NCBI RefSeq assembly: GCF_001971705.1
Contig: NZ_CP019327.1
Span: 3,224,001 to 3,288,000 of the forward strand
Length of the DNA stretch: 64,000 bases
Direction of reading: 5' to 3'
From: Natronorubrum daqingense
GTDB lineage: Archaea; Halobacteriota; Halobacteria; Halobacteriales; Natrialbaceae
A program made the position numbers and the translations under genes. Below are positions 6,661 to 24,135 of the stretch, piece by piece; within the stretch, counting starts at the first letter, position 1; each line of letters starts with the position of its first letter. The notes below the pieces were generated by a model. That model worked only from the letters and a program-made list of their open reading frames with translations, had not been told where the DNA came from and did no database searches.

Positions 6661-6782
6661 GAGAGGTGAGTGAGCGGTGCGCGGCGCTTCGCGCCGCGGG
6701 AGTGCAAACGGGGAGCGTAAGCGACCCGTGAGCAAAGCGAGCGAACCCGACGAGAAAAAGGCACGTGTGCAAAGTGTCCTGC

Positions 6783-8081: not shown

Positions 8082-9109
8082 GACCGCTCACCCTCGAGTT
8101 CGCGCAGTCGCTCGATTCGAACCGCCGTGGGCGGGTGCGTATCCGGGAAGATGTCCGTGCTGAGCAGGTCGTTCGAGTCGAAGGCCCGATCCTCGAGCGG
8201 GGCGAGGTACAGCGCTTCGGTGCCGCCGTCGAGCTTTCGAAGGTCCTCGTCCGGCACGGCCGTCATCGTCTCGTCGATGGTCTCGAGGGCGCTCGCGAGG
8301 GCTGCCGGTGAGCCGGTGATCGCGGCTGCGGCCTCGTCCGCGGCGTACTCGCGTTGGCGCGAGAGGATTCGGTAGAACAACACGCTCGCGAGCCAGAACA
8401 TCGCCGAGACCAACAACGTGGCGACCGCTGTGACGGTGATGACGACGATTACGGCTACGATACCCCGCCCGTCGCCGCTCCCGCTCGAGCGCCCTCCCGC
8501 TCCGGCTCCGAGTAGCCGGTAGAAGCCATAGAGGACGTAGAACGCGACGATTGCGAGGTAGTAGGTGATCGTCGGCAACAGCCACGCGACGGTCATCAGG
8601 TTCGCGTCTCGGTTCTTGAGGTGGGCGAGTTCGTGGGCCAACACGGCCTCGAGTTCGTCCTCAGAGAGCGACTCGAGGAGGGCACTCGTCACGACGACGC
8701 GGCCCGTTTCGCCGCCACCAGCGACGGCGAAGGCGTTGGGGACGTCGCTCTCGATGACGCTGATGGCTGGTTTCGCTACGTCGACTTGCGAGGAGAGTCG
8801 CGTGACCGTCGCGTGAAGCTCCGGATACGCGCTCGCGTCGACGGGACGAGCACCGAGCGAGTCGACGACCGTTCGCGGCCCGTACCGATACTGGACGGCG
8901 AGTCCGCCGAGGACGACGACCGACAGGACGAGCGGATCGACGTAGAACTCGCCGTGGTACGGTTGTTCGTTGACCCACTCGAGTAAGGGGATTCCGACGG
9001 TGTTCACGAGGAAGAGAAACGTGTAGACGAACGCGAACGGTAGACAGACGACTAATCCGAGTGCGAGGAGCATTCGAATACGGAGTTCGCGGTCGGTGGA
9101 GAGAGCCAT
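8078..9109 (-). CDS. htpX: M48 family membrane metalloprotease HtpX
   Basis: A 343-residue membrane protein with transmembrane segments near residues 13-40 and 60-75, two more after the active site (about 172-200 and 215-245), and the zinc motif HELAH (159-163) inside VLAHELAHLKNRDAN. The third ligand is likely the Glu in YAADEAAAA about 90 residues later, the typical M48B arrangement. HtpX degrades misfolded membrane proteins with the active site facing the cytoplasm. It is translationally coupled (ATGA overlap) with the downstream propeller lipoprotein, which suggests a joint role in envelope quality control; that link is inferred. Confidence 0.93.
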   Translation of the reverse strand: MALSTDRELRIRMLLALGLVVCLPFAFVYTFLFLVNTVGIPLLEWVNEQPYHGEFYVDPLVLSVVVLGGLAVQYRYGPRTVVDSLGARPVDASAYPELHATVTRLSSQVDVAKPAISVIESDVPNAFAVAGGGETGRVVVTSALLESLSEDELEAVLAHELAHLKNRDANLMTVAWLLPTITYYLAIVAFYVLYGFYRLLGAGAGGRSSGSGDGRGIVAVIVVITVTAVATLLVSAMFWLASVLFYRILSRQREYAADEAAAAITGSPAALASALETIDETMTAVPDEDLRKLDGGTEALYLAPLEDRAFDSNDLLSTDIFPDTHPPTAVRIERLRELEGERS

Positions 9110-9271
9110 GTGTGGAAACGCTTGCTTGTCATCTGTCCTGACATCTTATAATGGTGTTTGTCGTGAACCGTTTCCAGTGTGTGAGGAGTCTGAACAGGCT
9201 ACGAGTGGATACTGGTTGTACACATCGACAGCAACTGATCGTAGAGCTACTAGGTGTTTAAGGAGAACACA

Positions 9272-9279
9272 CTTATACG
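9272..9279 (+). promoter_or_regulatory. TATA-like box of the nadE transcript
   Basis: The sequence cttatacg is centred at about 9275. Transcription would start near 9300, exactly at an ATG (9300) that begins a nine-codon ORF. The upstream in-frame ATG of the nadE reading frame (9254) lies before this box and is therefore unlikely to be the translation start. Confidence 0.55.
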
Positions 9280-9299
9280 AGACGTTTGTCTAACTATCT

Positions 9300-9329
9300 A
9301 TGGAAAAACGTGGTGTTCAACTCCCGTGA
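9300..9329 (+). CDS. Leaderless micro-ORF (MEKRGVQLP) upstream of nadE
   Basis: Codons ATG (9300-9302) to TGA (9327-9329) encode nine residues. The ATG is at the expected transcription start, 25 bases from the TATA centre, and the TGA overlaps the GTG start of nadE (9326-9328) in a GTGA arrangement. This would let terminating ribosomes restart on nadE. No protein-level evidence is available; it may be chance. Confidence 0.35.
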   Translation: MEKRGVQLP

Positions 9330-10219
9330 ACGCAAACGTCGAAACAGTCGACAGCGCCAGTGTCGAACTAGCTGGTACATCGTTCCTAACGGACCGTTCG
9401 AGACTCGAGGCTGTACGGTCTCGGGTCGTCAGCGACATTCGGACGTCCGTCGAGGACGCGAGCGCAGAGGGCGTCGTCGTCGCGATGAGCGGCGGAATCG
9501 ACTCGACCGTGACGACCGCACTCGCCGTCGACGCGGTCGGAAGCGACAGCGTGCTCGGTCTCGGTCTACCGTGTCACAAAACTGAGCACGTCGACGTCAG
9601 CGACGCTCGAACCATTGCGGACGGACTGGGAATCGAGTTCGAAGAACGTAGCCTTCGGCCGATGCTCGAGGCGTTCGAGGAGACGGTCGTCGGTTCGCTC
9701 GAGTCCTGGACGGACGAGACCGACGCTGATCGCCCTCGCGAGCGAAATCACGCGATCGGCAACGTGATCGCGCGCTTGCGGATGTGCTGTGCGTACTACG
9801 CGGCAAATCGCCAACGGCGGCTTGTCCTCGGAACGGCGAACCGTTCGGAGCTGTTGCTGGGGTACTTCACCAAATACGGCGACGGCGCGGCCGATACGTA
9901 TCCGATCGGTGACCTCTATAAAACTGAAGTTCGCGCACTTGCAAAGCGAATCGGCGTTCCAAAACGGATCGTCAGTAAGGAGCCGACCGCTGGATTCTGG
10001 GCGGCACAGACTGACGCCGACGAGCTGGGTGCGACCTACGACACCATCGATCCGCTGCTTCACCAGCTCGTCGATGAAAACACCTCGATCACGGATGCCG
10101 CAGACGCGCTCGGAATCGATCGGCAAACGGCCCGGTCGATCGCGTGGCTCTGTACTGAAACACGGCACAAACGCAAAATGCCACAGACACCCGGTATCGC
10201 GGATCGTCCGCTCGTGTAA
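9326..10219 (+). CDS. nadE: NAD(+) synthetase
   Basis: Catalyses the last step of NAD synthesis, amidation of deamido-NAD with ATP and ammonia or glutamine. The ATP pyrophosphatase motif SGGIDS is at residues 55-60 from the GTG start at 9326, followed by LGLGLPC, the NVIARLRM helix, LGTANRSELLLGYFTKYGDGAADTYPIGDLYKTEVR and a KEPTAGF segment, all typical of the family. There is no nitrilase domain, so ammonia-dependent activity is expected. An open frame extends upstream to 9254, but a TATA box at 9272 argues for the later start (297 residues). The C-terminal 50 residues contain an HTH-like segment (SITDAADALGIDRQTARSIA). Confidence 0.93.
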   Translation: MNANVETVDSASVELAGTSFLTDRSRLEAVRSRVVSDIRTSVEDASAEGVVVAMSGGIDSTVTTALAVDAVGSDSVLGLGLPCHKTEHVDVSDARTIADGLGIEFEERSLRPMLEAFEETVVGSLESWTDETDADRPRERNHAIGNVIARLRMCCAYYAANRQRRLVLGTANRSELLLGYFTKYGDGAADTYPIGDLYKTEVRALAKRIGVPKRIVSKEPTAGFWAAQTDADELGATYDTIDPLLHQLVDENTSITDAADALGIDRQTARSIAWLCTETRHKRKMPQTPGIADRPLV

Positions 10220-10286
10220 CGATCTCGCGTCGATCGGCTGACTCGGACGAACGATTCACTCGGACGATCGGTCGGCTCGCGTCGAT

Positions 10287-10721
10287 TCACTCGAGCGTTC
10301 CGGCGTACAGCGCCGTGTTGCGCCACCAGAAGAGTCCCCACGAGAGCATGAAGCCGCCGCCCATCGCGAGAATGTCCTGGACGATGCGTGGCAGGCCGAT
10401 GGTGACGATTGCGGCGAGCACGATCGCCGAGCCGAGGGCAGCACCAACGAGGACGAACAGGAGGTCTCCAACAATGTGCGCCTGTGATTGCTCCCAGTAG
10501 TGTTGGCGCTCCTCGTCGTACCAGGGGCCGATAAAGATCAATACCGGCGCCATCGCGGTGATGATGGGGATCACCTCGAAGGACTGCGGTACTCCGGCCG
10601 GTCTGAACACGTAGAAGTTGAGCAACTCGGCGACGAGCACCATCCCGAACAGGCCGATCAAGAGCCAGCCCCAGCGCGGAAGCGATTCCTTGTCCATGGA
10701 GGAAGACGATTCCGCCGTCAA
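10287..10721 (-). CDS. Small multi-pass membrane protein, unknown function
   Basis: A 144-residue protein with four likely transmembrane segments (WGWLLIGLFGMVLVAELLNF; VIPIITAMAPVLIFIGPW; DLLFVLVGAALGSAIVLAAI; ILAMGGGFMLSWGLFW) and no recognised domain. The start is probably the TTG at 10719-10721 (complement): a perfect Shine-Dalgarno AGGAGG (10728-10733) lies six bases before it. The ATG at 10697 is the alternative and would lose eight residues. It follows the HTH gene on the same strand with 24 bases between them, so the two form an operon. Confidence 0.75.
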   Translation of the reverse strand: MTAESSSSMDKESLPRWGWLLIGLFGMVLVAELLNFYVFRPAGVPQSFEVIPIITAMAPVLIFIGPWYDEERQHYWEQSQAHIVGDLLFVLVGAALGSAIVLAAIVTIGLPRIVQDILAMGGGFMLSWGLFWWRNTALYAGTLE

Positions 10722-10727
10722 AATAAT

Positions 10728-10733
10728 CCTCCT
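10728..10733 (-). promoter_or_regulatory. Strong Shine-Dalgarno AGGAGG before a TTG start
   Basis: On the minus strand AGGAGG, then ATTATT, then TTG. As the second gene of an operon, the membrane protein would need such a site; it decides the start in favour of TTG. Confidence 0.6.
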
Positions 10734-10745
10734 ATTTGCTGATGA

Positions 10746-11039
10746 TTATTCGGCGCAGCAGGCGTCCTTCTTCGGTGACTCCTCGACGCCGTTTCCGTCG
10801 GCCGCGACGGGTTCCTCGATCCGATAGAGGCTCTGTCGGGCGTCAGCAAAGTAAATATCTTCGTCGACGATTCCAATGTCCTCTAGCCGCTCGAGTGCGT
10901 AGCGAACGGTTCGGGCAGACAACATCGACTCTTCGACGATCTGCTTTTGGGTCAACGGACCATCGTACTCGAGTACCTTGAAGACGAGTTTGGCACTCGG
11001 TGGCAAATCTTCGATGTTCTCCCCGTCGGTCTGTGCCAT
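10746..11039 (-). CDS. Small MarR-like winged-helix regulator
   Basis: A 97-residue protein: LPPSAKLVFKVLEYDGPLTQKQIVEESMLSARTVRYALERLEDIGIV is a clear winged helix-turn-helix (residues about 13-60), with the recognition helix at SARTVRYALERL. The C-terminus carries a Cys pair (DACCAE). Start ATG at 11037-11039 (complement); a TATA-like element (cataaaagtt, 11065-11074) is 30 bases upstream, so translation is nearly leaderless. It heads an operon with the membrane protein. A 14-base palindrome lies 135 bases upstream of its start. Confidence 0.85.
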   Translation of the reverse strand: MAQTDGENIEDLPPSAKLVFKVLEYDGPLTQKQIVEESMLSARTVRYALERLEDIGIVDEDIYFADARQSLYRIEEPVAADGNGVEESPKKDACCAE

Positions 11040-11064
11040 ACTACGAATCGAAAGGTCCCAGAAG

Positions 11065-11074
11065 CATAAAAGTT
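11065..11074 (-). promoter_or_regulatory. TATA-like box of the small HTH gene
   Basis: Minus-strand AACTTTTATG centred about 30 bases before the ATG at 11039. Confidence 0.45.
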
Positions 11075-11167
11075 GAGCCTCGCCAGCGGGATCACCCGAC
11101 ATAAATTTCGGCAGAGGAATTATCGTATATTGTCTCTATGGCGGTCCAAGTGCTAGAAATACATATT

Positions 11168-11181
11168 TGACTGGCCAGTCA
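11168..11181. promoter_or_regulatory. Perfect 14-bp palindrome, TetR-type operator candidate
   Basis: TGACTGGCCAGTCA is a perfect inverted repeat, followed directly by GTCA, so half-site TGAC/GTCA occurs three times. The form resembles operators of TetR/AcrR-family regulators. It sits between the end of the acyl-CoA ligase gene and the promoter of the small HTH gene. No TetR-family gene is visible in this window. Confidence 0.5.
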
Positions 11182-11242
11182 GTCAATGGCGAGGATTGCG
11201 GGAGTCGAGAGTCGACGATCACCTGCCCACTTGGCACCGTAC

Positions 11243-12853
11243 TTATCCTTCACCGACCAGTCGATCCTCGTCCTCCCACTCGCGCTCGCGAAGTTCGTAC
11301 TTCTGTGTCTTTCCGGTCGCAGTCTTCGGTAGGTCTTCGACGTATTCGATCTGTCGAACTACTTTGTAACTCGCGAGGTGCTCGCGGGTAAATTCGGTCA
11401 ACTCCTCCGGTGAAACCGGCGGTTGATCCGGCGAACCACTCGAGGGCACGACGAACGCTTTCGGCGTCTCTCCCCACTCCTCGCTCGGAGCCGGGATGAC
11501 TGCAGCGTCCCCAACGGCGTCGTGATCGAACAGCGTGTCCTCGAGTTCGATGCTCGAGATGTTCTCGCCGCCGGAGATGATGATGTCTTTCTTCCGGTCG
11601 CGGATGGCGATCATCCCGTTCTCGTCGACCGACGCGAGGTCGCCGGTGTGGAAGTAGCCCTCGAGACGGCCGCTGAACGCTTCGTCGGTCTCCTCAGGCT
11701 TGTTCCAGTAGCGGTCCATAATCTGATTGCCGCGGACGACGATTTCGCCGAGCGTTGCATCGTCTCGCGGGACGTCGGTACCGTCCTCGTCGACGACGCG
11801 GACATCGGTACCGAGAACGCCCATTCCCTGGCGTTTCTTGAGTTCGTAGCGATTCTCGTCGGTCAGGAGCCGTTTCGCATCGGAAATGGTGATCAGCGGT
11901 CCGGTTTCGGTTGCCCCGTAGAGGTGTTTCAGGTACCAGCCGAACTCCTCTTCGACGGCGCGAATGGTCGCTTCCGGCGGCGAGCTGCCGGCAGTCGTCG
12001 CTCGCACCCGGTGTTCGCCCATCATCTCGGGTTCGCCTTCTGTCTCGTAGTAGTCGATCAACTGATTGAGCACCGCCGGTGCAGCACAGAGGAACGACAC
12101 GTCTTCGGTCGTAATCGCCTCGACGACCTCGTCGGCGTTGACGCCGCGGGTACAGACGTGCGTCGCACCCATTCCGGTCACCGCGTAAATGTGGCCCCAC
12201 CCGTTGACGTGGAACATCGGTAGCGTCCAGAGGTAGACGTCGTCATCGGTGATCTCGTGATACATCGACATCAAGTACGCGTGAACGGTTTCCGTTCTGT
12301 GCGTTCGACAGACGCCCTTCGGATCGCCCGTCGTCCCCGAGGTGTAGTTGATCGTAATAATCTCGTCTTCGGCCAACTCGGGTGCGTCGAACTCGGTCCC
12401 CGCCTCCTCGAGTACGGTGTCGAAATCCTCCCACTGACCGTCCACCACGTCCGTCTCGTTCGTCACGAACGTCTCCGTCGGCACGTCCTCGAGGATCGGC
12501 TCGATTTTTTCGGCGTACTCGTAATCCGCGTAGACCGCGTCGACGCCCGCATCCGAGAGAATGTACTCGTAATCGTCCGGAGTCAGCCGATAGTTCAGCG
12601 GCGTAAAGATCGCACCCAGTTGCATCGCACCGTAGGCCGCCTCGAGATGATAGTGCGTGTTCGGATCGAGCACTCCAACTCGATCACCTTTCTCGATTCC
12701 GCGTTCTGCTAACGCCGCCGAAAACCGATCGACTCGCTCGCCAAACTCCTCGTACGTGAATCGCTCCCCCGTAGTCCCGACAATCGCCGTTTCGTCTCCG
12801 TAGTGGGCTCGTGCCTGCTCGAGAAAATCGGTCACGATGAGTGGCGTCTTCAT
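11243..12853 (-). CDS. Long-chain fatty acid-CoA ligase / acyl-CoA synthetase
   Basis: A 536-residue member of the ANL superfamily: activates a carboxylic acid with ATP to an acyl-adenylate and transfers it to CoA. Motifs: P-loop YTSGTTGDPKG (170-180), YGATETGP (adenine-binding region, about 315), YFHTGDLASVDENG and RKKDIIISGGENIS (A8 hinge), and the catalytic Lys in PKTATGKTQK near the C-terminus. Start: ATG at 12851-12853 (MKTPLIVTDFL); the longer frame to 12880 adds nine unlikely residues. The closest haloarchaeal types are annotated as medium/long-chain ligases; the chain length cannot be read from sequence. It stands alone, so no pathway context. Confidence 0.9.
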   Translation of the reverse strand: MKTPLIVTDFLEQARAHYGDETAIVGTTGERFTYEEFGERVDRFSAALAERGIEKGDRVGVLDPNTHYHLEAAYGAMQLGAIFTPLNYRLTPDDYEYILSDAGVDAVYADYEYAEKIEPILEDVPTETFVTNETDVVDGQWEDFDTVLEEAGTEFDAPELAEDEIITINYTSGTTGDPKGVCRTHRTETVHAYLMSMYHEITDDDVYLWTLPMFHVNGWGHIYAVTGMGATHVCTRGVNADEVVEAITTEDVSFLCAAPAVLNQLIDYYETEGEPEMMGEHRVRATTAGSSPPEATIRAVEEEFGWYLKHLYGATETGPLITISDAKRLLTDENRYELKKRQGMGVLGTDVRVVDEDGTDVPRDDATLGEIVVRGNQIMDRYWNKPEETDEAFSGRLEGYFHTGDLASVDENGMIAIRDRKKDIIISGGENISSIELEDTLFDHDAVGDAAVIPAPSEEWGETPKAFVVPSSGSPDQPPVSPEELTEFTREHLASYKVVRQIEYVEDLPKTATGKTQKYELREREWEDEDRLVGEG

Positions 12854-13085
12854 ACACCAAAATCTATCACGATCGATCATTTACGCATTTCGATCACCAG
12901 GCAAACCGACTCTCCGATTTCACGACCAAAATCACCGGCAAGCGTCCCGGTGTGTCTGCTCCTAATCTCGCTTCCCCCGATGCAGTTTCACTCGAGTTCC
13001 TCCTCCGACTCGCCCGTCGAAAACGACTGCCACCGGCCTCCGTCGCCGCGCGGACCAGTACCCACCTCACGGTAGCCGGGGACGG

Positions 13086-14270
13086 TTAGAGTTGCTTCCA
13101 GACGTCTTCGTCGTCCTCGAACCCTTCCTCGTCCAGATCTGAGAACTCGTCGATCCCCTCGAGATCCATCTCTTCGGGCGTAATCGCCGGTTCATCACCG
13201 TCGCCACTCGAGTCGCCGTGCTCCGAGAGGTTCATCTCCGGCCAGGCCGTTTCCTCCCACTGTCCACGCTCGCTGTAGTAGTAGACGACGCCATCGTTGA
13301 CCACGGCGAAGAGCCCACGTTGTGTGTCGTGGACGACGCGCTCGTTCGTATCGATCGCGACGTCGACGACGTCCTCGAGCGTATCGAGCGAGACGTGATA
13401 GTTCCCGATCCACATCGGGATCGACCCCTTCGAGATCCACTCGGCGTAGCGGCGTTCGTGAATTTTGCGCCGGGCAACCGTTTCGTCGACCGGCGTGCGC
13501 CGGACGATTCCCACCGCCCCGGCGAGCGAAATCGTTCCGAGCAGTGACAATCCGGCGATCAACGCGAGCGAGCGCGACTCAGTCGTCTCCTCGGTCCCCG
13601 TCTGCTGGGTCGCCGTCTCCGACACCGACGCCGAATCCCCGAGCCAGTAGGCCGTCGAGGTCACCTCGAACGGCGTCGTCGCCTCGTCGGTTCCCTCCGC
13701 GCCACCAGTATCGTAGGCAACCGACAACACGAACTCGAGGTCCACGTCGCCGACGCCGCCGAGTTCCTGCTCGAGTTCGTACTGTCGGTCTCGGTACGAT
13801 TCGACGTCGATCGTCTCCGAGGACGTCGCGACGCCGTCTTCGACGGTCGGCGATTCCTCGAGTACCGTATGGCTCTCGTTCCAGAACACGTCGCCGTCTC
13901 GCGTCGCCTCGTATCGCGCCTCGAGTTCGTGTGTCACCTCTGTATCGTCGACCGAGACGTCTTCGCGTTCGCTCTGAACCGTCGTCTCGGGCTCGAGGGT
14001 CAACTCCGGCGAGTCGTTGAGCATGTAGACGTCGTTGTTCTCGAGATACTCTCCCTCGTTCCAGAGCGTCCCGTCTTGAACGACCTCAGCGCCTGTGTGC
14101 AACTCCGTCGAGACGTGTTCGTCCGCGTACTGTGCTTCCGTCGTCGTCGATGGGTTCCCAACGGCCCATCCCGACGCGACGAGTGCGAGCGTACCGATCA
14201 CGACCAGTGCAATCGCGATCGCTCTGCCGTACTCGGCGAACAGCAAGTCGAGTCGTGCGTTATCGATCAC
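13086..14270 (-). CDS. DUF5305-type membrane protein
   Basis: A 394-residue protein with an N-terminal transmembrane segment (IAIALVVIGTLALVASGWAV, about 16-36), an external beta-rich region of about 200 residues with recurring 'EVTSTAYWLGDS'-like strands, a second transmembrane segment (SLALIAGLSLLGTISLAGAVGIV, about 232-255) and a cytoplasmic C-terminal domain of about 135 residues (WISKGSIPMWIGNYHVSLDTLEDVVDVAIDTNERV). This layout matches haloarchaeal DUF5305 proteins, whose function is unknown but which recur next to signal peptidase genes. It lies downstream of the signal peptidase on the same strand, with 198 bases between. Confidence 0.8.
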   Translation of the reverse strand: MIDNARLDLLFAEYGRAIAIALVVIGTLALVASGWAVGNPSTTTEAQYADEHVSTELHTGAEVVQDGTLWNEGEYLENNDVYMLNDSPELTLEPETTVQSEREDVSVDDTEVTHELEARYEATRDGDVFWNESHTVLEESPTVEDGVATSSETIDVESYRDRQYELEQELGGVGDVDLEFVLSVAYDTGGAEGTDEATTPFEVTSTAYWLGDSASVSETATQQTGTEETTESRSLALIAGLSLLGTISLAGAVGIVRRTPVDETVARRKIHERRYAEWISKGSIPMWIGNYHVSLDTLEDVVDVAIDTNERVVHDTQRGLFAVVNDGVVYYYSERGQWEETAWPEMNLSEHGDSSGDGDEPAITPEEMDLEGIDEFSDLDEEGFEDDEDVWKQL

Positions 14271-14468
14271 AGTTAGTTACCCCTAGAGAGACAGCGGTGC
14301 TGACCCTCCGTTTCCATCCCCGCAGTAATCCCCAACCGCAAACGGTTGAAACTATCACTCGGGTATAATTATCACTTCCGTTCATTATAACTATACTGGC
14401 CAAACCGAGACGATCTACCGATGCGGTAGCGGATCGCCCGTCGCGGCCGAAATCGCGTTCGAACCCGA

Positions 14469-15638
14469 TCATCGCCACTCCCGAATTTTTCGACGGACTC
14501 GAGTCGCCAGCGAGACGTGCACGCCAGTGCTTCGAATCCGAATGTCGTTTCGTCCGAACACGGCGAGGACGAGCATAACGGCAACGCCGACGATGACGCC
14601 GTTGACGGCGGCGATTGCAACGAGTGGATGCCCAGTGTGGAGCCACTCGATCACGGACGGTGGTAAGAGGGCGATATACCGGTGCTCCTCGACGGACCGC
14701 GTGTACTCGCCAGTCTCCTCGGGTGCAGTGAGCGAGACCGTCGCCTCTCCACTCGAGCGCGGGCCGACCGTCTGTCGATCCGGATCGGTACTGACGGACT
14801 CGCGATCACTCTCGTGGATCGCGACGATCGGCAGGTAGCCCGCATTGTCGACCGTCTGTGTCAACTCGCCAGTCTCTCCGGGCTCGAGTTCTTGTGGGTC
14901 GTCACCCGGGGACGTGGTGCTCGCGATTCCGTACTCGACGGTTCCCGACGGGATCACCATCGCCGCCGTCGCTCCTGTGACGAAGACGAGTAAGACGACG
15001 CCCAGCACCGTCCACAACGCGATGACGTTCGGTCGCGAGCGCGAGCGTGTCGCCTCCCGGCGCCCGGGCCCGAGTCGCTCGAGGAGGATTCCGAAGCCGA
15101 GCAAGGCGACACCGAGGCCCACGAGCACTGCGCCGGCCGAATCGAAGTCGGTCGGTTCCGACAACCCGACCGTCGACGCAACCGTTCCGAACGCCGATTC
15201 CACGCCACCCTGAATGCCCATAATCGCCGTCCCCAGGTGTGGAATCGTGACGGGGTCGCCGCCGAGTTCCCACGCGGTCGCGACGATCTGATCGTCCGTG
15301 ACGTGTGGCTCGTCGCTATCTTGATCCGTGAACGGATTCGCGTCGCCACTCGTGACGTACCCTTCCTCCGTTTCGTCGACGATTCGATGCGTGGTCAACT
15401 CACCGTCGTGTAACTCTCGAGCCTCGAAGACGACCACGTCACCCTCTTCGGGCGATCCCGTCACGGCGCTCGGAACCGAGACGAAGCCGTCTCCCGCGTC
15501 CATCGTCGGCTCCATGCTGCCGGTCGCGACGTACCCGAGCAAAATGGGCTGGCCGAGGAGCTGGCCGACCAATAACAACACGATGACGAGCGCGACGACA
15601 CCGCCCAGCACTCGCTTAAGGAGTGTTCCCGTCGTCAC
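14469..15638 (-). CDS. Signal peptidase I (archaeal/SipW type) with C-terminal extension
   Basis: A 389-residue membrane serine protease that removes signal peptides outside the membrane. The first 160 residues are the S26B domain: an N-terminal anchor (12-29), Ser41 in TGSMEPT, the catalytic His84 in LTTHRIV and Asp99 in GDAN. His instead of Lys as base is normal for archaeal, ER and SipW enzymes. Unusual is the large second half: a transmembrane segment around 165-185, another near 205-230, an external beta-rich domain (VEYGIASTTSPGDDP onwards) and a last transmembrane segment around 335-360. It lies between secreted-protein genes, as expected for a dedicated peptidase. Confidence 0.88.
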   Translation of the reverse strand: MTTGTLLKRVLGGVVALVIVLLLVGQLLGQPILLGYVATGSMEPTMDAGDGFVSVPSAVTGSPEEGDVVVFEARELHDGELTTHRIVDETEEGYVTSGDANPFTDQDSDEPHVTDDQIVATAWELGGDPVTIPHLGTAIMGIQGGVESAFGTVASTVGLSEPTDFDSAGAVLVGLGVALLGFGILLERLGPGRREATRSRSRPNVIALWTVLGVVLLVFVTGATAAMVIPSGTVEYGIASTTSPGDDPQELEPGETGELTQTVDNAGYLPIVAIHESDRESVSTDPDRQTVGPRSSGEATVSLTAPEETGEYTRSVEEHRYIALLPPSVIEWLHTGHPLVAIAAVNGVIVGVAVMLVLAVFGRNDIRIRSTGVHVSLATRVRRKIREWR

Positions 15639-15747
15639 GGTTTGACCACCCGAAGGCGTCCGTTCGGCTGAATTCGCCTCGACGGTGACCGTACTCGCTT
15701 CGACGATGGTTGTACTCGCTTCCCCAGTTTTCGTTCGGACGTGCGAG

Positions 15748-16869
15748 TCATTTTTTTACCCACCGTCGGTTTGCGACAGTCGCGATAACCAGCAAACTCG
15801 CCGCCATCGGTGGTGCGAGCGCAGCCATCGTCGTCGCCGACAGCTCTCTGTTTTGAATCTCGAACGTCGGCTCGTCGACGGTGACCGTGCCGGCGTCGAC
15901 GCCGCTGACTGCAACGGGCGTCGTTCCTTCGCCGTCGAACTCGTGTTCGAACGTGACCGTCTGCTCGCTCGCCGACTCGAGTGCGACCGTTTGCGTGTCG
16001 ACGACGATGCCGTCGACCGCGAGTTCGAGCGTTCGTTCGACCGGTTTGTCGGTCGGATTCGAGACCGTCGCCTCGATTTCTCCCGTCTCGCCGGCTGCGA
16101 GTTCGGTATCGACGACCGATGCCTCGAGCACGTCGACCGGTGGACCGTCGACCAAAACCGTCTCGTGCTCGACGCCGTCGACGCCGAGTTCGGTCTCCCC
16201 CGGCCACTCGAGTTGGCGCTCGAAATGCACCGTCTCTGTGTCTCCAGGACTGACCGTCACTGACTCGGAATCGACGACGGTTCCGTCTACCGTCAACTCG
16301 GCGTCGGTCGTCTTCGTCCGCTCGCCGACGTTCTCGTAGGTCGCGTTCACCGTGACGTTCTCCCCCGTTTCGACCGTTTCCGGCTCGACCTCGAGGTCCT
16401 CGAGGGTAACGACACCGGTCGATTTCCCATCGTCGTCTTCGTACTCGACGTGGACCGTGAACGTCTCCGTCGCCGCGTGATCGACGTGCGTATCGATACT
16501 CACACCGATCCGCGCGCTCTCGCCAGCCTCCGGCTCCAATGGCGACGATTCGCTCAGTTCTGCGTGTTGGTTCCCGTTTTCGTAAAAGGTGAGCCCCTCG
16601 ACGTCTTCGATCCAGACTCGCGAAACGGCATCGTCACCGACGCTGATCGTAAACACGTCGTCGAACGTGGTCACCGCCCGCTCGTTGAGGCGCTCGAGAT
16701 CCACCTCGAGCTCGCCCTCGTCCGTGACCGACGCGTAGGACGTCGTTGGCTCGAGGATGACGTCGTCGCTGGCGGTATCTTCATCCATCGTAATCGCAAC
16801 GGTTGGCACTGCCAGTGTAAGTACTACGCAGGCCGCCACAACGGTCCATATCGCCTTCGGTGATACCAT
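15748..16869 (-). CDS. Secreted DUF1102/CARDB-type protein with C-terminal anchor
   Basis: A 373-residue exported protein. N-terminal signal or anchor (AIWTVVAACVVLTLAVPTVA), then a DUF1102-like domain: LNERAVTTFDDVFTISVGD aligns with LNENAVTRFDNLITITNNG in the neighbouring 17032-17547 protein. Two CARDB-type immunoglobulin-like repeats follow (about 135-225 and 230-325, each with 'VSPGDTETVHFE' or 'LESASEQTVTFE'), and a C-terminal transmembrane segment (MAALAPPMAASLLVIATVA) with a short basic tail. I chose the ATG at 16867-16869 (MVSPKAIW). It is upstream of the signal peptidase on the same strand (gap 109) and is likely a fibre anchor or subunit; that role is inferred. Confidence 0.8.
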   Translation of the reverse strand: MVSPKAIWTVVAACVVLTLAVPTVAITMDEDTASDDVILEPTTSYASVTDEGELEVDLERLNERAVTTFDDVFTISVGDDAVSRVWIEDVEGLTFYENGNQHAELSESSPLEPEAGESARIGVSIDTHVDHAATETFTVHVEYEDDDGKSTGVVTLEDLEVEPETVETGENVTVNATYENVGERTKTTDAELTVDGTVVDSESVTVSPGDTETVHFERQLEWPGETELGVDGVEHETVLVDGPPVDVLEASVVDTELAAGETGEIEATVSNPTDKPVERTLELAVDGIVVDTQTVALESASEQTVTFEHEFDGEGTTPVAVSGVDAGTVTVDEPTFEIQNRELSATTMAALAPPMAASLLVIATVANRRWVKK

Positions 16870-17031
16870 TCGCCGTATATCCCGCAACCGTCGCTCGTCT
16901 CGTTTCCTCTCAAACGGCTGTCGGGTGCCGGCCGAACCTGGGCCGGCACGCCAGCTACGCGAGTCCACCCCATTCCCAGTGGTTTCGGTGTACTGCGTAA
17001 CAGCCTTAGCTAGTGCTACTGGCCTGACCCA

Positions 17032-17547
17032 CTAGCCCTCGGTCGAGGTCTCAGTGGCTTCGATCTCGATTGTGTCGATATCTTCTATGTTGTCGCCCGC
17101 CCCCGTGTCGAATTGAAACCCGACGTGAAGCTCGTCGTCGTCGAGTGTTATTTCGTTGATTTCCGCGTCTTCGTTGTCGCCTTCGTACGCGAGGAACATG
17201 TCATCATCATCCGCACTAATGGTGACCTCAATATTCTCTGAATCCCGCTCTCCGTTATTCGTAATCGTAATGAGATTATCAAATCTAGTTACGGCGTTCT
17301 CGTTGAGGCCTTCCTCGTCATCTTCTCCACCGAAGTCGAAGCTAATCTCGTCGTCGTCATCGTCGACGTACTCTGAACCTTCGCCGTATGCCTCGATTCC
17401 AAGATAGGCGTCTGCATCGCCTGTTGTCGTAACCTCGATGGTACGATCTGCTTCTACCGTACTAAACGCGCCCGTCCCGAGTGCAGCCCCGCCACCCGCG
17501 ACGATCGTTCCTAATCCCACTAACACATTGCGTCGATTCATTCTCAT
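17032..17547 (-). CDS. DUF1102 secreted protein, SipW-type signal peptide (TasA/camelysin-like)
   Basis: A 171-residue small acidic protein. The signal MNRRNVLVGLGTIVAGGGAALGTGAFSTVEADRTIEV has the pattern of SipW-dependent peptides: short basic start, hydrophobic core, then GTGAFS and a charged strand. The motif DADAYLGIEA follows, then NENAVTRFDNLITITNNG. Family proteins such as TasA and camelysin in Bacillus and the Pyrobaculum pilin AbpA have the same kind of start and form fibres; homology here is inferred from pattern, not a search. ATG at 17545-17547, with a second ATG two codons on. It is the first gene of the minus-strand group leading to the CARDB protein and signal peptidase, and is the best candidate for a major fibre subunit. 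Confidence 0.8.
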   Translation of the reverse strand: MRMNRRNVLVGLGTIVAGGGAALGTGAFSTVEADRTIEVTTTGDADAYLGIEAYGEGSEYVDDDDDEISFDFGGEDDEEGLNENAVTRFDNLITITNNGERDSENIEVTISADDDDMFLAYEGDNEDAEINEITLDDDELHVGFQFDTGAGDNIEDIDTIEIEATETSTEG

Positions 17548-17801
17548 GTATATGGTCTCCGTTCTTCGCGCCGGTCGTCACCGTCTCGAGGACGGACGCC
17601 GGTACGCGGTCCGTATCAACTCTCAGATACGCTACCCACTTTGTATTCGGTTGCCAGAAGGGCTGAACGGTGAGCCATACGCTCGCTCAGGGTTGACTTG
17701 AACGGACCAATTCGGCGTCGAAATTGTTCGATTCCGTTTACGAACCGCTGTCAAATACGAACGAGCTTCGATCTTACAACTTCCTTCATTCGGCAGAAAA
17801 A

Positions 17802-17811
17802 TTATTGTATA
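17802..17811 (+). promoter_or_regulatory. TATA-like box before a small leader ORF
   Basis: The A/T-rich ttattgtata is centred about 26 bases before the ATG at 17833, consistent with a leaderless transcript beginning at that ATG and continuing into the gene at 17994. Confidence 0.4.
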
Positions 17812-17832
17812 TCTGTCGCCATCTCAAGTCTC

Positions 17833-17997
17833 ATGGGAACACGAGTTGGGGAACGATGTGGAGTGCCTAGTCCGTTGGTCTCCTCGAGACGAGTGCGTCC
17901 TCGGTCGCATGAACCGAACGCAAATTCGATCGACGTGACGAGAACGGATCTGTATCACTGCCGATCCCAACCGACGAGCATAGGGACTGTTTCATGA
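17833..17997 (+). CDS. Possible 54-residue leader ORF
   Basis: Starts at an ATG placed where a leaderless transcript should begin and ends in a TGA that overlaps the ATG of the next gene (ATGA at 17994-17997). The peptide (MGTRVGERCGVPSPLVSSRR at its start) is Arg- and Ser-rich and unlike typical acidic haloarchaeal proteins, so it may be an untranslated leader region or a regulatory leader peptide. Confidence 0.3.
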   Translation: MGTRVGERCGVPSPLVSSRRVRPRSHEPNANSIDVTRTDLYHCRSQPTSIGTVS

Positions 17998-19019
17998 GAA
18001 ACGCGTTCACGATGCTGGGTGTGATCTGTCTCCTCGTCGGGAGTGCAATCGTCGCTGCTCCGTTCTTCGGCGGCTATTCTACCCTTGCCGACAGAGAAAC
18101 GAGCGTCTCCGTCGCTGAGGACGAACAACACGCGTATCTCGGCCTCGAGGAAACGTACGACGGACCGCTCATCGAATACGAAAGTAGATGGCTGATTGGC
18201 GATATCGACGTGAGCGCCGATGTAGCGCACGTAACGAACAACGCGAACAACCCACTCGAGATTACGGACGTACACGTCCGCGGTACGACGTGGGCTGGCG
18301 GCGGTGATAGCAGTGTCCTCTCGGTCGCGAATGCCGATGATCACGCCGGCCTCGACTCTGGGGACGTCGTGCCGATCGAACTCGAGTGTAGTCAGGATGT
18401 CGACGTGGCGGCGGACGACGCGACGGTCGACTTGTCGGTTACTACAGACGGATCTGGTGCTTCTGTTGACCGAGAGGCGTTTACGGTATCTGGCGTCGAT
18501 TTCGATTGCGAAGGCGACCAGCCACCCGCCGATGACTACCCAGCGCCGATTCCAATCGACGATTCCGGCCTTGAACTCGTCGGTCCACCCGAAACTGCGA
18601 CCTCGAGTGGCGTCGATACTGGCGAGGAATCGGCAGTCATGTTCGACATCGAATACGAGGGCGAAGGTGATGGAACTGTGACTGGAATCTCAGTCCGAGA
18701 AACCTCGAGTGCGGCGAGTGAAATCGGCTACACCGGAACCGGCGGCTCAGAACTCATCATCGACGCGAGTGAAGACGGAAGTCTCGATGACGATATCGAA
18801 ATCGGCGACGGTGCACCCCGATACGATCTTGATGATCAGGCACTGCTCGAAAGTGGGGACGAGGCCACAGTTACGCTCGAGCAGTTCCGTACTGGCGGCG
18901 CATTCAGCCAGGTCGACATGCGCGGTGAAACAGTGACGGTCGTCCTGTACGTAGAGGGACTCGATTCGGACGATCCCAACGCCGAACTTCCCATCGAAAT
19001 AGTTCTCGATATTCCTTAA
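17994..19019 (+). CDS. Secreted beta-rich protein with AYLGL motif (DUF1102-related)
   Basis: A 341-residue exported protein. Signal or anchor MRNAFTMLGVICLLVGSAIVAAPFFGGYSTLADRETSVSV, then DEQHAYLGLEE, which mirrors DADAYLGIEA and DPSAYLGIDG in the two cluster paralogues. After this come two beta-sandwich-like halves joined by a proline-rich linker (DQPPADDYPAPIPIDD, about residue 175). Two Cys occur in the first half (ELECSQD, DFDCEGD) and could pair. No C-terminal membrane segment, so it is either held by its N-terminal segment or cleaved by the local signal peptidase. It points away from the minus-strand part of the cluster and precedes the vWA gene. Confidence 0.75.
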   Translation: MRNAFTMLGVICLLVGSAIVAAPFFGGYSTLADRETSVSVAEDEQHAYLGLEETYDGPLIEYESRWLIGDIDVSADVAHVTNNANNPLEITDVHVRGTTWAGGGDSSVLSVANADDHAGLDSGDVVPIELECSQDVDVAADDATVDLSVTTDGSGASVDREAFTVSGVDFDCEGDQPPADDYPAPIPIDDSGLELVGPPETATSSGVDTGEESAVMFDIEYEGEGDGTVTGISVRETSSAASEIGYTGTGGSELIIDASEDGSLDDDIEIGDGAPRYDLDDQALLESGDEATVTLEQFRTGGAFSQVDMRGETVTVVLYVEGLDSDDPNAELPIEIVLDIP

Positions 19020-19110
19020 TAGTGCGGTGGTGGGCACTCGTCTACGCGACGTACTCTTTTCTCCAACTTCTGATAAAATAGGTGTTCGTCTATGATGAGT
19101 ATACAGTACA

Positions 19111-19119
19111 CTTATATAA
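19111..19119 (+). promoter_or_regulatory. TATA box of the vWA gene
   Basis: cttatataa is centred 29 bases upstream of the ATG at 19144 and supports that start over the in-frame TTG at 19132. Confidence 0.6.
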
Positions 19120-19143
19120 TTCAGGACAGGATTGTCTTGTAGA

Positions 19144-21888
19144 ATGAACAGTGTTGGGAACCGACCATCTTCACACGATTGCCGGGATCGAGGGGTCAAT
19201 CCGCAACTCGGTATCGTGCTGTTGTTCATGATGGTCTTCGTGGGGGGGACGCTCGTGTTCGTCGTGGGAATGAGTGCGATGGATACGATCCAATCACAGA
19301 CGCACGGGGAAAAGACCGAACAGGACCTTCAGCAGTTCGACGCCGATCTCACGACGATTGCTGGACAGGGTGAAACGGGATCAGTCTATCTCGACGGTCT
19401 CGACGGCGAAATCGTCGACGACGGCGAATTGAAAGTGACCGTTTCGGATGGGTACCGAACCGACACTGAATCGACCAATTTGACAACGTTCGCGGCCGAA
19501 GACGACGGTGGAAACGAGTACGCCTATCAGGCGGGTGGCGTCTGGGAGATTCACGACGACCGGGCGACCCCGATGGCGACGCCGAACATCGACTATTATC
19601 AGGAGACCATCGACGACGAGGAGGTCGGCCGAATCGACATTTCGCCGCTCTCACTCGAGGGAACTGTCGGCTCCGGTGAGCACACAGTTCAACAACCCCA
19701 AGACGATAATTCAGGAGAATTCGACACCCTCGGTAACGACATGGACTATGTGGACCACGTCACGGTCGAGGTTACCGATACGGCCTACCACCACGGCTGG
19801 TACTCATTCCTGGAGGACGAGTTCGATGCGGTCGACGAATCCGACGTGGACGACGACTGTGACTCGGCCAGTGGCGAAGTGACTTTAATCTGTCACGACG
19901 AGTCGGCAGAGTCGGTTACGGTCGTCGCCGCCGTCGACGGGGACGCACCGCTCGCAGACCTCGTCGATATTGAACCGGCCGTCTTCGGCGGCCTGTTCCT
20001 CGAGGGTGATGAGGGTCAACTCCGTTCGAGTCTCGACGTAAACTCCTACGACGACCACGATACGGCGAGTAACGTTACTGATGATCTGTTCCTCGCGAAC
20101 TATGACGAGTACGAGCTAGCGAACAATGCCAATGTTTCCGGACTTTCTGTAGTTAACGGAGAAGTACATGCGCCGTCGAATCCTAAAATGTCTCCACTAG
20201 TGTATGGTCTTGAGTTTACTGACCAAAGCATCCACGAACCCCTCGATGAAGGTGTTTATCAGATAAATTCCGACGAACCACGAGGACAATCCGTTGGGGC
20301 TGAATTATCTGAACCGTTCGACGATATCGATACGATCGACGACGAACTCGAGCGATTACACACGGAGTATCTCGATGGTGAATCAGAAGCGGATGGTGAA
20401 GTCTCCGCCACCGACGATAGTAGTCAAGAAGGGTTGTTCGATGGGGCGTCCGACATCAATTCACTCGATTCGTCCGATGGCGACATTCACGTTGGTGTCG
20501 ACGAACACGACACGCTTGAACTCCCATCTGATTCAGATGATCCATCCGTGTCAGAAACTCTCACAGTTAGTGGAGACAATCAGACGAACTTCTACGTCGA
20601 GGGGGATGTCCAACTTGGGAATGTCGAAATCGAACCCGACGATCGCGCCGATTCGCTATGGGTCTACGCATCGAGCGAGTCGCAGATTACGATCGACGAC
20701 GACTTCCAGGGCGTCGTCTACGCGCCGGGTGCAGACATCGACATTGCTGAGAACGTAACGATCGACGGTGCAGTCGTTGCTGGAGACGGCAATATCGAAT
20801 CAAACCAGGGCTCACAGGGGCCACAAGACGATAACATCGAGGAGTACGATGTCGAGATCAACTTCGACGAATCACTCCGTACCGAGACTCCGTTTACGGA
20901 CTCCGACGAGGACCTCTACTTCGAGTACGGCGAGCAACGAATGCCACTCGATGCGACGTTCGTGCTCGACCGATCCGGATCGATGGGCCCACACAATCCG
21001 AGTGATGCAATCGATCCGTACAACCCGAACGACGAGGAGGACATCGGCGAATCGTGGGAACCGATACCGACGGACGATCCGTTCCGAAACATGGACGGTG
21101 GCTTCCTCGGGATCGGCGACGAATCTGACGTCGAACTCCGTGACGAGGACGGCAACACCGAGCGACTCGAGTATCGCGACTACGCTCATCCGGATGATTG
21201 GGAGGATATCCGTGTCCACCCAGACGACCACGGTGGACTGTTCGGCGGCTCGGCCACGCTCGGACTGTACGACCACCCTGGCAACGACCCGACCAGTGAA
21301 CGGGTCGACGCAACTCGGAATTTCATCGGCATGATGAACGAGACCGATGGTGACCGCGCCGGAGTCTACGACTTCGACCGAGACGGACACGTGCTCCACC
21401 ACCTCGACGACGACCTCGACGCAGCGCAGGCGAACGTCGAAGGCCACGCAGACGGCGGAACGAACATGGCCGACGGGTTCGAACTCGCACTTAATGACTA
21501 CGAGAACTACGGCGAAGACGACCAGGAGCGAGTTACGGTTTTGCTGAGCGACGGACAGAACAACTATCCCGAAGATGATGCGGCGATGGACGCGCAAGTC
21601 GAGCGCGCGAACGAACTCAACGTCACGCTCTACACTGTCGGATTAGGCGGCCTCGAGCACGATCCGATTCCGGAAGACGAACTCGAGGAGTGGGCCGAAC
21701 AGACTGGCGGCTCGTTCCACAGCACGGACGACGCCGAGGAACTCTTCGATCTCTTCGAGACCATCGCGGAAGAAGAAGTCGAGGTCGATGCCGAACCAGA
21801 AGTCGAAATTACCGCGACACACGAGCGGGACGTGACGGCAGACTACGCTGTCAGTGCCAGCGAACAGGTCGTCGAGATCGACTCCTGA
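19144..21888 (+). CDS. Pilin-like von Willebrand factor A domain surface protein
   Basis: A 914-residue acidic surface protein. The N-terminus RDRGVNPQLGIVLLFMMVFVGG (14-35) looks like an archaeal type IV prepilin: a basic leader, G-V-N-P-Q-L-G, then a 20-residue hydrophobic helix (compare RAVSPVIGVIL of haloarchaeal pilins). Residues about 480-555 form a right-handed beta-helix-like stretch (VYASSESQITIDDDFQG, GVVYAPGADIDIAENV), as seen in DUF7305/PilX-type proteins. A vWA domain spans about 600-870 with the metal site DRSGSMG (609-615), Thr773 in DGGTNM and Asp803 in LLSDGQNN; an insert of about 110 residues follows the first motif. Probably an adhesin incorporated in or near a pilus. The ATG at 19144 is preceded by a good TATA box. 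Confidence 0.85.
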   Translation: MNSVGNRPSSHDCRDRGVNPQLGIVLLFMMVFVGGTLVFVVGMSAMDTIQSQTHGEKTEQDLQQFDADLTTIAGQGETGSVYLDGLDGEIVDDGELKVTVSDGYRTDTESTNLTTFAAEDDGGNEYAYQAGGVWEIHDDRATPMATPNIDYYQETIDDEEVGRIDISPLSLEGTVGSGEHTVQQPQDDNSGEFDTLGNDMDYVDHVTVEVTDTAYHHGWYSFLEDEFDAVDESDVDDDCDSASGEVTLICHDESAESVTVVAAVDGDAPLADLVDIEPAVFGGLFLEGDEGQLRSSLDVNSYDDHDTASNVTDDLFLANYDEYELANNANVSGLSVVNGEVHAPSNPKMSPLVYGLEFTDQSIHEPLDEGVYQINSDEPRGQSVGAELSEPFDDIDTIDDELERLHTEYLDGESEADGEVSATDDSSQEGLFDGASDINSLDSSDGDIHVGVDEHDTLELPSDSDDPSVSETLTVSGDNQTNFYVEGDVQLGNVEIEPDDRADSLWVYASSESQITIDDDFQGVVYAPGADIDIAENVTIDGAVVAGDGNIESNQGSQGPQDDNIEEYDVEINFDESLRTETPFTDSDEDLYFEYGEQRMPLDATFVLDRSGSMGPHNPSDAIDPYNPNDEEDIGESWEPIPTDDPFRNMDGGFLGIGDESDVELRDEDGNTERLEYRDYAHPDDWEDIRVHPDDHGGLFGGSATLGLYDHPGNDPTSERVDATRNFIGMMNETDGDRAGVYDFDRDGHVLHHLDDDLDAAQANVEGHADGGTNMADGFELALNDYENYGEDDQERVTVLLSDGQNNYPEDDAAMDAQVERANELNVTLYTVGLGGLEHDPIPEDELEEWAEQTGGSFHSTDDAEELFDLFETIAEEEVEVDAEPEVEITATHERDVTADYAVSASEQVVEIDS

Positions 21889-22080
21889 CACGCTCGCTCA
21901 AGCTGACAAATTATAGATGGCGGCGACCTCGTGGTTGATCTGTCCGATCCAATATAGTCGATAAGGCGTATAATGCGCACGATATTGCCATCCTATCACA
22001 CACCGGAGTACTGTCATTTCTCGGCAAGAAACATTATGTACAACAGATACGTCAGTCCTTATTGGGGGATACGATATCCA

Positions 22081-22617
22081 ATGGCGACACCGATGAGTAG
22101 TGACTCGAGAAAGGGGGAAATATTCGATCTCTTGAGCAATCAGCGTCGCCGCTATACGATTCACTACTGTAAACGTGAGAACGAACCAGTGACGATCGGC
22201 GATCTGGCGGAACACGTGGCGGCCTGGGAACTCGACAAGGAGGTCGCAGAACTCACGTCTGCAGAGCGAAAGCGCGTGTACACGTCCTTACAGCAGACAC
22301 ACTTGCCGACGCTCGAGCGAGCGGACGTGATCGAGTTCGACGACCGGACGATCGAACTGACAGACGAGGCCGCCGCGCTTGACGTCTACCTCGACGTTGT
22401 GCCTGCGGACTCGATTCCGTGGGGTGTCTACTACCTCGGGTTGGCCGCCCTCGGTGGAGTCATAATTGGAGGACTGTGGCTCGAGGTCGTCCCAACGGGA
22501 ACGGTTTCAGAACTCGAATGGGCAACGCTGGTGTTTGCATTGTTCGCGTTTTCGGCAGTTGTACACGTAGTTCAGAGTCGACAGATGCGATTGGGAGAGA
22601 TAGAGCGACCACCGTAG
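22081..22617 (+). CDS. DUF7344-type winged-helix protein with two membrane segments
   Basis: A 178-residue protein: residues about 10-100 form a winged helix (GEIFDLLSNQRRRYTIHYCK, then DLAEHVAAWE and RKRVYTSLQQTHLPTLERADVIEFD), the DUF7344 pattern of haloarchaeal regulators; residues about 120-165 hold two transmembrane helices (GVYYLGLAALGGVIIGGLW and ATLVFALFAFSAVVHVV). It would be a membrane-bound regulator. ATG at 22081 (MATPMSSDSRKG); the frame is open further upstream. Only 15 bases separate it from the next secreted-protein gene, so the pair is an operon, making it a likely regulator of the surface cluster. Confidence 0.8.
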   Translation: MATPMSSDSRKGEIFDLLSNQRRRYTIHYCKRENEPVTIGDLAEHVAAWELDKEVAELTSAERKRVYTSLQQTHLPTLERADVIEFDDRTIELTDEAAALDVYLDVVPADSIPWGVYYLGLAALGGVIIGGLWLEVVPTGTVSELEWATLVFALFAFSAVVHVVQSRQMRLGEIERPP

Positions 22618-22632
22618 AGAACGTGACGATAG

Positions 22633-23496
22633 ATGCCTCAAAAAAGTACTGTAACGCGACGTACTGCGCTCGGACTGATCGGAGCCGGCGTCCTATTGAC
22701 GGCATCCGAGACGTTCGGGTTTAGCGAAATCTATGCGGGGCGAGGTGTGAGCGTTACTGCGAGCGACGATCCATCTGCGTATCTCGGAATTGACGGCACT
22801 ACCGCTGACAGGACTCCCGTGTTTGTGAACAATACTACCACATATTCGATGACCGTCGAACTTGACAGCGACGACGATATCGAGTTTGATGTAAACGGAG
22901 AAGATGAATTTCAGGAACAGGTTGAGTTCGATATTGAACCGGGAGAAAACCAAGAGATTGAAGTAGGGGGGACAGATGAAACAGCGATCGTTCATATTTT
23001 TGCTGACCTCGAACCGACGAACAGCGACGACGCCACTGGCATTATCGATCTCGAACGGATATTTGAGATACCTCAGACAGCCGCTATCAGTGACATACAG
23101 GGAAGTGTTGATTCCGCGGGCAACAGTGGCAATTACGAATTTATCATCGAGAATACTCAACCTGACGACGGTCAAGTAGTCGAGCTTGACGGACTAGCTA
23201 TCAGCTGGACGAATAACGAGGATGCGAATCAGGTTGGTGGCCATAATGATGATATTTTATTATTCGAAGACGAGCAGATTATAGACGAGGTTATCTACAT
23301 TGGCGAAGAACTCGTCGGGTTCTCGAGAGATGGAGAAGAAAATACTGTTGCGATTGAACCTGGTGACGAAATGGAATTCGAGTTTGATAGATTTCGCGAG
23401 GAAGATGGGGGCGGTAGTAATGTTGGTGTTGACGACGTGGATATCACAGTCCGTGCAACCGACGGTTCTACCGCTCAAATTGAATTGAGATCCTGA
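22633..23496 (+). CDS. Secreted beta-rich protein with AYLGI motif (DUF1102-related)
   Basis: A 287-residue exported protein. Signal TRRTALGLIGAGVLLTASETFGFSEIYAGRGVSV contains a twin-arginine and ends like the other cluster proteins, followed by DDPSAYLGIDGT. The remainder is acidic, beta-rich and has no recognised domain; the second half (about 155-285) repeats the beta-sandwich character. No Cys and no C-terminal membrane segment. Base composition is clearly lower in GC than most of the window (for example the stretch 23240-23300). It is co-transcribed with the DUF7344 membrane regulator and is likely a fibre subunit or adhesin; the role is inferred. Confidence 0.75.
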   Translation: MPQKSTVTRRTALGLIGAGVLLTASETFGFSEIYAGRGVSVTASDDPSAYLGIDGTTADRTPVFVNNTTTYSMTVELDSDDDIEFDVNGEDEFQEQVEFDIEPGENQEIEVGGTDETAIVHIFADLEPTNSDDATGIIDLERIFEIPQTAAISDIQGSVDSAGNSGNYEFIIENTQPDDGQVVELDGLAISWTNNEDANQVGGHNDDILLFEDEQIIDEVIYIGEELVGFSRDGEENTVAIEPGDEMEFEFDRFREEDGGGSNVGVDDVDITVRATDGSTAQIELRS

Positions 23497-23808
23497 CAGT
23501 ATTACGGCGTACGAGGGCTGACCTCATTCAGGAGTAGTACTTACATCGTTTCAAGATAGCCACTACCCTTGAGTTTGAACATCACGTCGAAATACATATT
23601 CTGTCATCACTCTCCACGTTTGTGCTGTTAGCGTCTTGTTCGCGAAAATTCCTCTGGTGGCAGTGAAGCAATCACATAAGGTTATTGCTACTGACGAAAG
23701 CAAATGTAATCTTACTACAACGGCTGGTACCAGTGTAGATACAGCGACGTATGACTCCCTCGAGACCAACCCGAACGCCTTTTTAGCCCCGCACTCGGAG
23801 TTGTTCGC
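23497..23808. other. Gene-free A/T-rich spacer
   Basis: 312 bases between the surface cluster and the EMC6-like gene. Relatively A/T-rich, no credible ORF, no clear repeat or hairpin. It marks the right border of the accessory cluster. Confidence 0.6.
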
Positions 23809-24135
23809 ATGTCGACCGAATCGATTAGTGACCGACGCGAGCATATCCGCTCGATCAGCGTGACGGCGCTGTCGGCGCTGCTCGGCGTCGCTGCCGGGTT
23901 TGCCTCGTTGGCGATTACCGGCGACGCCGCTTCGGCGGACGCGGCAGCGTCGGATATGCGAGGGCTCTTGCTCGTGTTGGGGGCGATCCTCGCCCAGTTC
24001 ATCCTCTTTGACTTCACGAGCATTTACGGGGACGACGAGTTCGGGGCGAAACACTACCTGTTCATCGTGTTCATGACCTTCTCGTTCTGGTTCGTGACGT
24101 TTGGAATCTTGCTCACCACGGGGGCAAGCGTCTAA
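23809..24135 (+). CDS. EMC6-like membrane protein
   Basis: A 108-residue protein with three likely transmembrane helices (VTALSALLGVAAGFASLAI, GLLLVLGAILAQFILFDF, YLFIVFMTFSFWFVTFGILL). Size, topology and position directly before RLI fit the archaeal proteins named EMC6-like, related to a subunit of the eukaryotic membrane protein insertion complex; I assign this from memory of the family. Two bases separate its stop from the RLI start, so they are one operon. Confidence 0.7.
   Translation: MSTESISDRREHIRSISVTALSALLGVAAGFASLAITGDAASADAAASDMRGLLLVLGAILAQFILFDFTSIYGDDEFGAKHYLFIVFMTFSFWFVTFGILLTTGASV

Follow-up and report, generated by a model that had tools for sequence, protein, structure and literature searches.

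The 64,000-nucleotide stretch of Natronorubrum daqingense DNA analyzed here (the window; contig NZ_CP019327.1, positions 3,224,001 to 3,288,000) carries eight genes at positions 13086-23496 that very probably form a Natrialbaceae variant of the haloarchaeal twin-arginine translocation (Tat)-fimbriae locus, tafi, and not a new system. We refer to these genes by letter in coordinate order, A to D on the minus strand and E to H on the plus strand. All eight open reading frames (ORFs) of the original prediction were recovered with their positions and strands, and hidden Markov model (HMM) searches supported their families; revised starts were used for C (about 15748-16869), the vWA gene F (19144) and the DUF7344 gene G (22081). 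The prediction had described an undescribed surface-fibre system. Its core idea, that the genes make a surface fibre from small secreted subunits and include a signal peptidase of their own, is borne out by a solved pilin within the subunit family and by the co-occurrence of peptidase and subunits. The system is not undescribed, however, because tafi was published in 2025 (Galeva et al., iScience 28:111793, cited as reference 30 of PMC12687288), NCBIfam holds TafA, TafC, TafE and TafF models, and the homologous pilin has been solved.

Gene D (17032..17547, minus strand) encodes a Tat-exported, TafE/TafA-like fimbrial subunit, or pilin, with a hypervariable mature part. The D family profile matches PDB entry 9P0A, whose molecule is named "Pilin", at 9.9e-40, and the window protein alone matches it at 3.5e-22. 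The first 191 residues of 9P0A, which are those that were compared, are 100% identical to the product of G135:C49:117963-118535, a gene from a Natrialbaceae relative (G135). This gene lies ~1.5 kb from the orthologue of signal peptidase gene B and ~0.5 kb from a DUF7289 gene, in a locus that is orthologous to the window locus. The DUF7289 match of this neighbor covers the N-terminal part of F only, and the neighbor is not a close F orthologue. Because a "Pilin" of known structure is the product of the orthologous gene in a relative, fibre formation by D is well supported. Our literature search found no paper naming 9P0A. An AlphaFold2 model of D built from three sequences was unusable, with a predicted local distance difference test score (pLDDT) of 33.7. 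The DUF1102 match of D in Pfam is weak (0.0014) and below cut-off.

Comparison with Haloarcula-type loci ties the window to tafi. In locus L103, TafA, TafC, TafE and TafF all score above the NCBIfam cut-offs and are clustered with genes for a signal peptidase, a DUF7344 protein and a DUF5305 protein. The Haloarcula amylolytica locus (L118), which was the sole return of a single scan of genome contigs, has the same layout. Six of the eight window genes have tafi counterparts: the signal peptidase, the DUF7344 and DUF5305 proteins, the putative TafF-like anchor, the subunit that resembles TafE and TafA, and a protein with the N-terminus of TafC only. The D family aligns with the TafE family in hhalign (probability 99.95, E = 1.2e-37), and all 23 D family members match both the TafE and TafA models. 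Gene C (15748..16869, minus strand) encodes a probable TafF-like membrane anchor with a subunit-like N-terminal domain, CARDB domains (8.2e-11) and a C-terminal transmembrane segment. Its N-terminal 138 columns align with the TafF family (hhalign probability 98.2, E = 4.4e-14) and it occupies the same position in the locus, though hmmscan gave no TafF match for C at E ≤ 1. Gene A (13086..14270, minus strand; PF17231, 1.9e-48) encodes a DUF5305 membrane protein and is the counterpart of the DUF5305 gene of L103 and other Haloarcula-type tafi loci. Gene G (22081..22617, plus strand; PF24035, 5.4e-30) encodes a DUF7344 membrane protein with 50-58% identity to the products of the corresponding Haloarcula-type genes; its family and position make it a probable regulator. 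Since DUF5305 and DUF7344 genes are both present in the Haloarcula-type locus, neither is an addition to tafi; the original prediction had taken DUF5305 for one. From the alphabetical order of letters along the tafi locus, DUF7344 is probably TafB, the signal peptidase TafD and DUF5305 TafG.

The two proteins with TafA/TafE and TafC likeness also carry the export signal that gives tafi its name. Twin-arginine signals are found in D (MRMNRRNVLVGLG) and H (TRRTALGLIG) and are lacking in E, and the RR motif of D is invariant across the 23 family members. Gene H (22633..23496, plus strand) encodes a Tat-exported protein whose N-terminal segment is TafC-like (TafC 5.6e-10; 38.9 bits against a cut-off of 410); nothing in Pfam or NCBIfam scores above cut-off. 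Only about 48 N-terminal columns align with TafC in hhalign (probability 90), and no LamG match was found in H, whereas the Haloarcula-type TafC has a LamG domain. Gene E (17994..19019, plus strand) encodes a Sec-type secreted protein with no Pfam or NCBIfam match. By hhalign, E is related to the D family (probability 95.6, E = 1.1e-8) and to the H family (probability 98.7, E = 4.6e-16). We consider E a probable minor subunit and H a probable minor or tip subunit.

Several observations weigh against identifying the window locus with tafi or with a fibre. All window proteins score below the Taf equivalog cut-offs, which keeps us from equating the locus with tafi: D, although its homology to both families is significant, scores 84.9 bits on TafE (5.1e-24; cut-off 155) and 71.4 on TafA (1e-19; cut-off 190). 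The window lacks a separate TafA gene, D scoring on TafE and TafA alike, and the resemblance of H to TafC is confined to its N-terminus. The fibre status of 9P0A comes from its name and its three identical chains, and the locus of the window organism is known here from its genes alone. The last point, together with the lack of any solved homologue found for E and H, would also suit secreted S-layer-associated or cell-surface proteins that use a private signal peptidase without building a fibre. Given that 9P0A is a "Pilin" from the orthologous gene and that the subunits are homologous to Taf fimbrial proteins, we regard this explanation as very improbable. The sub-cut-off subunits, along with the different gene order and accessory genes, lead us to describe the locus as a Natrialbaceae variant of tafi.

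The locus signal peptidase and its presumed substrates are linked by a shared sequence motif. Gene B (14469..15638, minus strand) encodes a signal peptidase I of the Sec11/SipW type with a C-terminal extension. It scores 50.0 bits on TIGR02228 as the annotated ORF and 52.0 in the genome search, against a cut-off of 51.85. The catalytic residues are conserved (Ser in GSM, His in TTHR and Asp in GDANPF), and the Ser, His and Asp are kept in alignment with the peptidases of Haloarcula-type loci, to which B is 37-42% identical. The window genome encodes one B-type peptidase and one other signal peptidase elsewhere, which serves other substrates; TatC genes are also present. D, E and H have in common a mature N-terminal motif of about S-x-x-x-A-D-R ... 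A-Y-L-G (S-T-x-x-A-D-R ... A-Y-L-G in E), which stands behind a Tat signal in D and H and behind a Sec-type signal in E. A motif profile built from Sec-type members finds just three proteins in the window genome at E ≤ 1e-4, namely D, E and H. Of the 81 strongest motif matches in Natrialbaceae genomes, 78 are no farther than 15 kb from B. Among 125 Natrialbaceae genomes, 105 have both the motif and a B-type peptidase, 11 have neither, and 7 and 2 are discordant (Fisher 1e-9, with the kinship of genomes ignored). The motif is thus almost always missing where a B-type peptidase is missing. B probably cleaves these precursors to expose the shared motif.

The original prediction also likened the subunits to Bacillus TasA and Pyrobaculum AbpA. 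Descent from a TasA/AbpA-type beta-sandwich fibre (tapA-sipW-tasA or the bundling pili) has points in its favor: B is SipW-like (5.3e-9), the mature start of TasA (AFNDIK, 8AUR) resembles that of D (AFSTVE), and the unreliable D model showed strands only. Using a TasA N-terminal half whose letters were confirmed against PDB 8AUR and 5OF1, we obtained an hhalign probability of 0.3 with the D family, and 30 of 200 shuffled sequences scored equally high. TasA homology of D was therefore rejected at the sequence level, as the alignment is no better than chance. In a PDB profile search with D, 9P0A was the only known fibre protein, and no Sulfolobus thread chain was among the matches. The TasA comparison thus has no sequence support; tafi is the closer relative, with Tat signals as in D and H. 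The null result makes a TasA homologue less likely and leaves unaffected the idea that D works like TasA; common descent we consider possible but doubtful.

The tafi-like locus is widespread in the family. The closest B orthologues (at least 428 bits) are found, one per genome, in 86 of the 125 Natrialbaceae genomes; additional loci are recognizable from B paralogues that are less closely related. The fetched family loci repeat an order in which A-B-C-D are followed by a segment that varies but contains G, with EMC6 and ABCE1 next; a few ORFs were missed by the simple gene caller used for these comparisons. Because the A-B-C-D core recurs beside G and the EMC6/ABCE1 flank, the cluster is not a chance arrangement. 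The counterpart genes are also clustered in Haloarcula-type genomes, where their order and location differ, and this favors a functional link over mere synteny. In the window, genes for an AMP-dependent ligase and a winged helix-turn-helix (wHTH) protein flank the locus on one side; EMC6- and ABCE1-type genes adjoin its other end. The intergenic region from which the two gene groups diverge (17548..17993, ~446 bp) can be aligned with that of the closest relative, L078, and may be regulatory.

Conservation differs sharply between the genes. Between the window and L078, identity is 97% for A, 96% for B, 94% for C, 99% for EMC6 and 98% for ABCE1, compared with 90% for E, 86% for F, 81% for G and 65% for D (57% past the first mature residues; window 17032-17547 compared with L078:9365-9940). 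The signal region of D is nearly invariant in this comparison. A different protein occupies the H position in L078. Family-wide, the signal region of D averages 88% identity and the remainder 33%. No relatives turned up in viral contigs when these were scanned with alignments of D, B and TafE, and a plasmid search found no D homologue. Additional D-type genes were seen in other contexts. Second, paralogous tafi-like loci with DUF7344, signal peptidase and D-type subunit genes are present in other Natrialbaceae (L126, L127 and L128, the first two with DUF5305). Outside the family, locus L113 (G161, ~6732-14475) has several D-like Tat-signal subunits in tandem beside DUF7344, signal peptidase and DUF5305-like genes.

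Gene F (19144..21888, plus strand) encodes a large secreted protein in which Pfam identifies DUF7289 (the pilin-like N-terminus), DUF7305 and a vWA domain. It had been proposed as an adhesin incorporated in or displayed with the fibre. Of the 86 genomes that have B, 29 carry a DUF7289-type match no more than 9 kb away, where ~0.3 would be expected by chance placement if kinship is ignored. Most of these matches are between D and G, and they comprise both the vWA version and a long form that weakly matches Ig-like domains (CARDB/NEW3). This recurrence of vWA or Ig-stalk proteins near the locus peptidase is what would be expected if F were an integral (tip) adhesin of a hybrid Tat-fimbria. However, close F orthologues are found in three relatives (G265, G268 and G215) that have no B, D or motif match genome-wide; in two of these (L119 in G265, L134 in G268), nothing but F separates the wHTH gene from EMC6/ABCE1. 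In a fourth genome (G195), F is at the site and D and B are on another contig. F also lacks the motif common to D, E and H, has an N-terminus resembling a class III (PibD) signal, and has distant paralogues elsewhere in the genome (L121-L125). Given the three relatives with F and no fibre genes found, we think an integral role in the fibre unlikely.

Much of the same evidence bears on a second explanation, in which F would function independently, as a surface protein or a minor type IV pilin encoded at the fimbria site. Three relatives without fibre genes keep F, two of them demonstrably at the site, the window genome has a prepilin peptidase gene, and the F orthologues examined have a pilin-like [KR][GA]x[SNTA]P N-terminus, with a weak Pilin_N match in one homologue only (0.0085). 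Against this, F-type genes recur within the locus in many genomes, the second, non-vWA version included, and we give this explanation an even chance. It is compatible with a tafi variant in the window, where F is possibly an accessory protein or an independent adhesin or surface protein that shares the site. A single fibre supplied by three export routes (Tat for D and H, Sec for E and a prepilin-peptidase type for F), with fixed machinery and a tip/adhesin cassette swapped between species, seems improbable. Plasmid matches of F are limited to the vWA domain. In three relatives (L119, L120 and L134), F alone occupies the site flanked by the wHTH gene and EMC6/ABCE1, as if the fibre genes were lost, moved or never gained. 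F paralogues with 35-45% identity (L121, L122, L123 and L125) adjoin a block of DUF106 (EMC3-like, by eye), cytidylate kinase and adenylate kinase genes. The F-type DUF7289 gene is beside EMC6 here (window 19144-24135) and the paralogues are beside an EMC3-like gene, so both neighborhoods are membrane-insertase-related.

These observations are consistent with the following model for the window locus as a tafi variant. The D and H precursors, with their twin-arginine signals, are probably exported in a folded state through Tat, and E would follow its Sec-type signal. B would then cleave all three precursors and expose the shared mature N-terminus. Mature D is predicted to polymerize into the fibre, as supported by 9P0A, and D subunits may be joined by donor strands, by analogy with TasA and the Sulfolobus thread. 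Family and position suggest that C is the membrane anchor or initiator of the fibre, that A is accessory and that G is a regulator. E, H and sometimes F may make up a swappable cassette of surface proteins that differ between lineages and serve as minor, tip or co-displayed components.

The analysis joins the Haloarcula-type tafi locus, the isolated PDB pilin 9P0A and the DUF1102, DUF5305 and DUF7344 names in one Natrialbaceae-wide locus. We found no link among tafi, 9P0A and these DUF names in the literature examined. Several domains of unknown function thereby acquire candidate roles that can be tested. As judged from the sequences, the fibre subunit changes much faster than the machinery (65% versus 94-97% identity), which would be expected if viruses or partners drive its evolution.

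Known systems resemble the window locus to different degrees. Bacillus TapA-SipW-TasA likewise pairs a dedicated SipW-like peptidase with secreted fibre subunits, which share AF at the mature start, but no subunit sequence similarity was detected. The TasA precursor is Sec-exported, and we know of no TafF, DUF5305 or DUF7344 counterpart for TapA-SipW-TasA. The Sulfolobus acidocaldarius thread (Saci_0406) is an archaeal fibre whose small secreted subunits are substrates of signal peptidase I and are linked to one another through donor-strand complementation (PMC9715654); unlike D, its subunit is Sec-exported, and the PDB matches of the D profile include no thread chain. 9P0A is a D homologue with a near-identical signal region, and its gene is beside the locus signal peptidase of G135; its mature part has diverged from that of window D. 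Compared with tafi, the window has one subunit for TafA and TafE, a TafC-like protein without LamG and subunits below cut-off, its gene order is A-B-C-D / E-F-G-H at a fixed EMC6-ABCE1 site, and it adds the Sec-type AYLG protein E and the DUF7289/vWA protein F. What the two have in common is Tat-signal subunits, a probable TafF-like anchor, a locus signal peptidase and DUF7344 and DUF5305 proteins, all encoded in a single divergent cluster.

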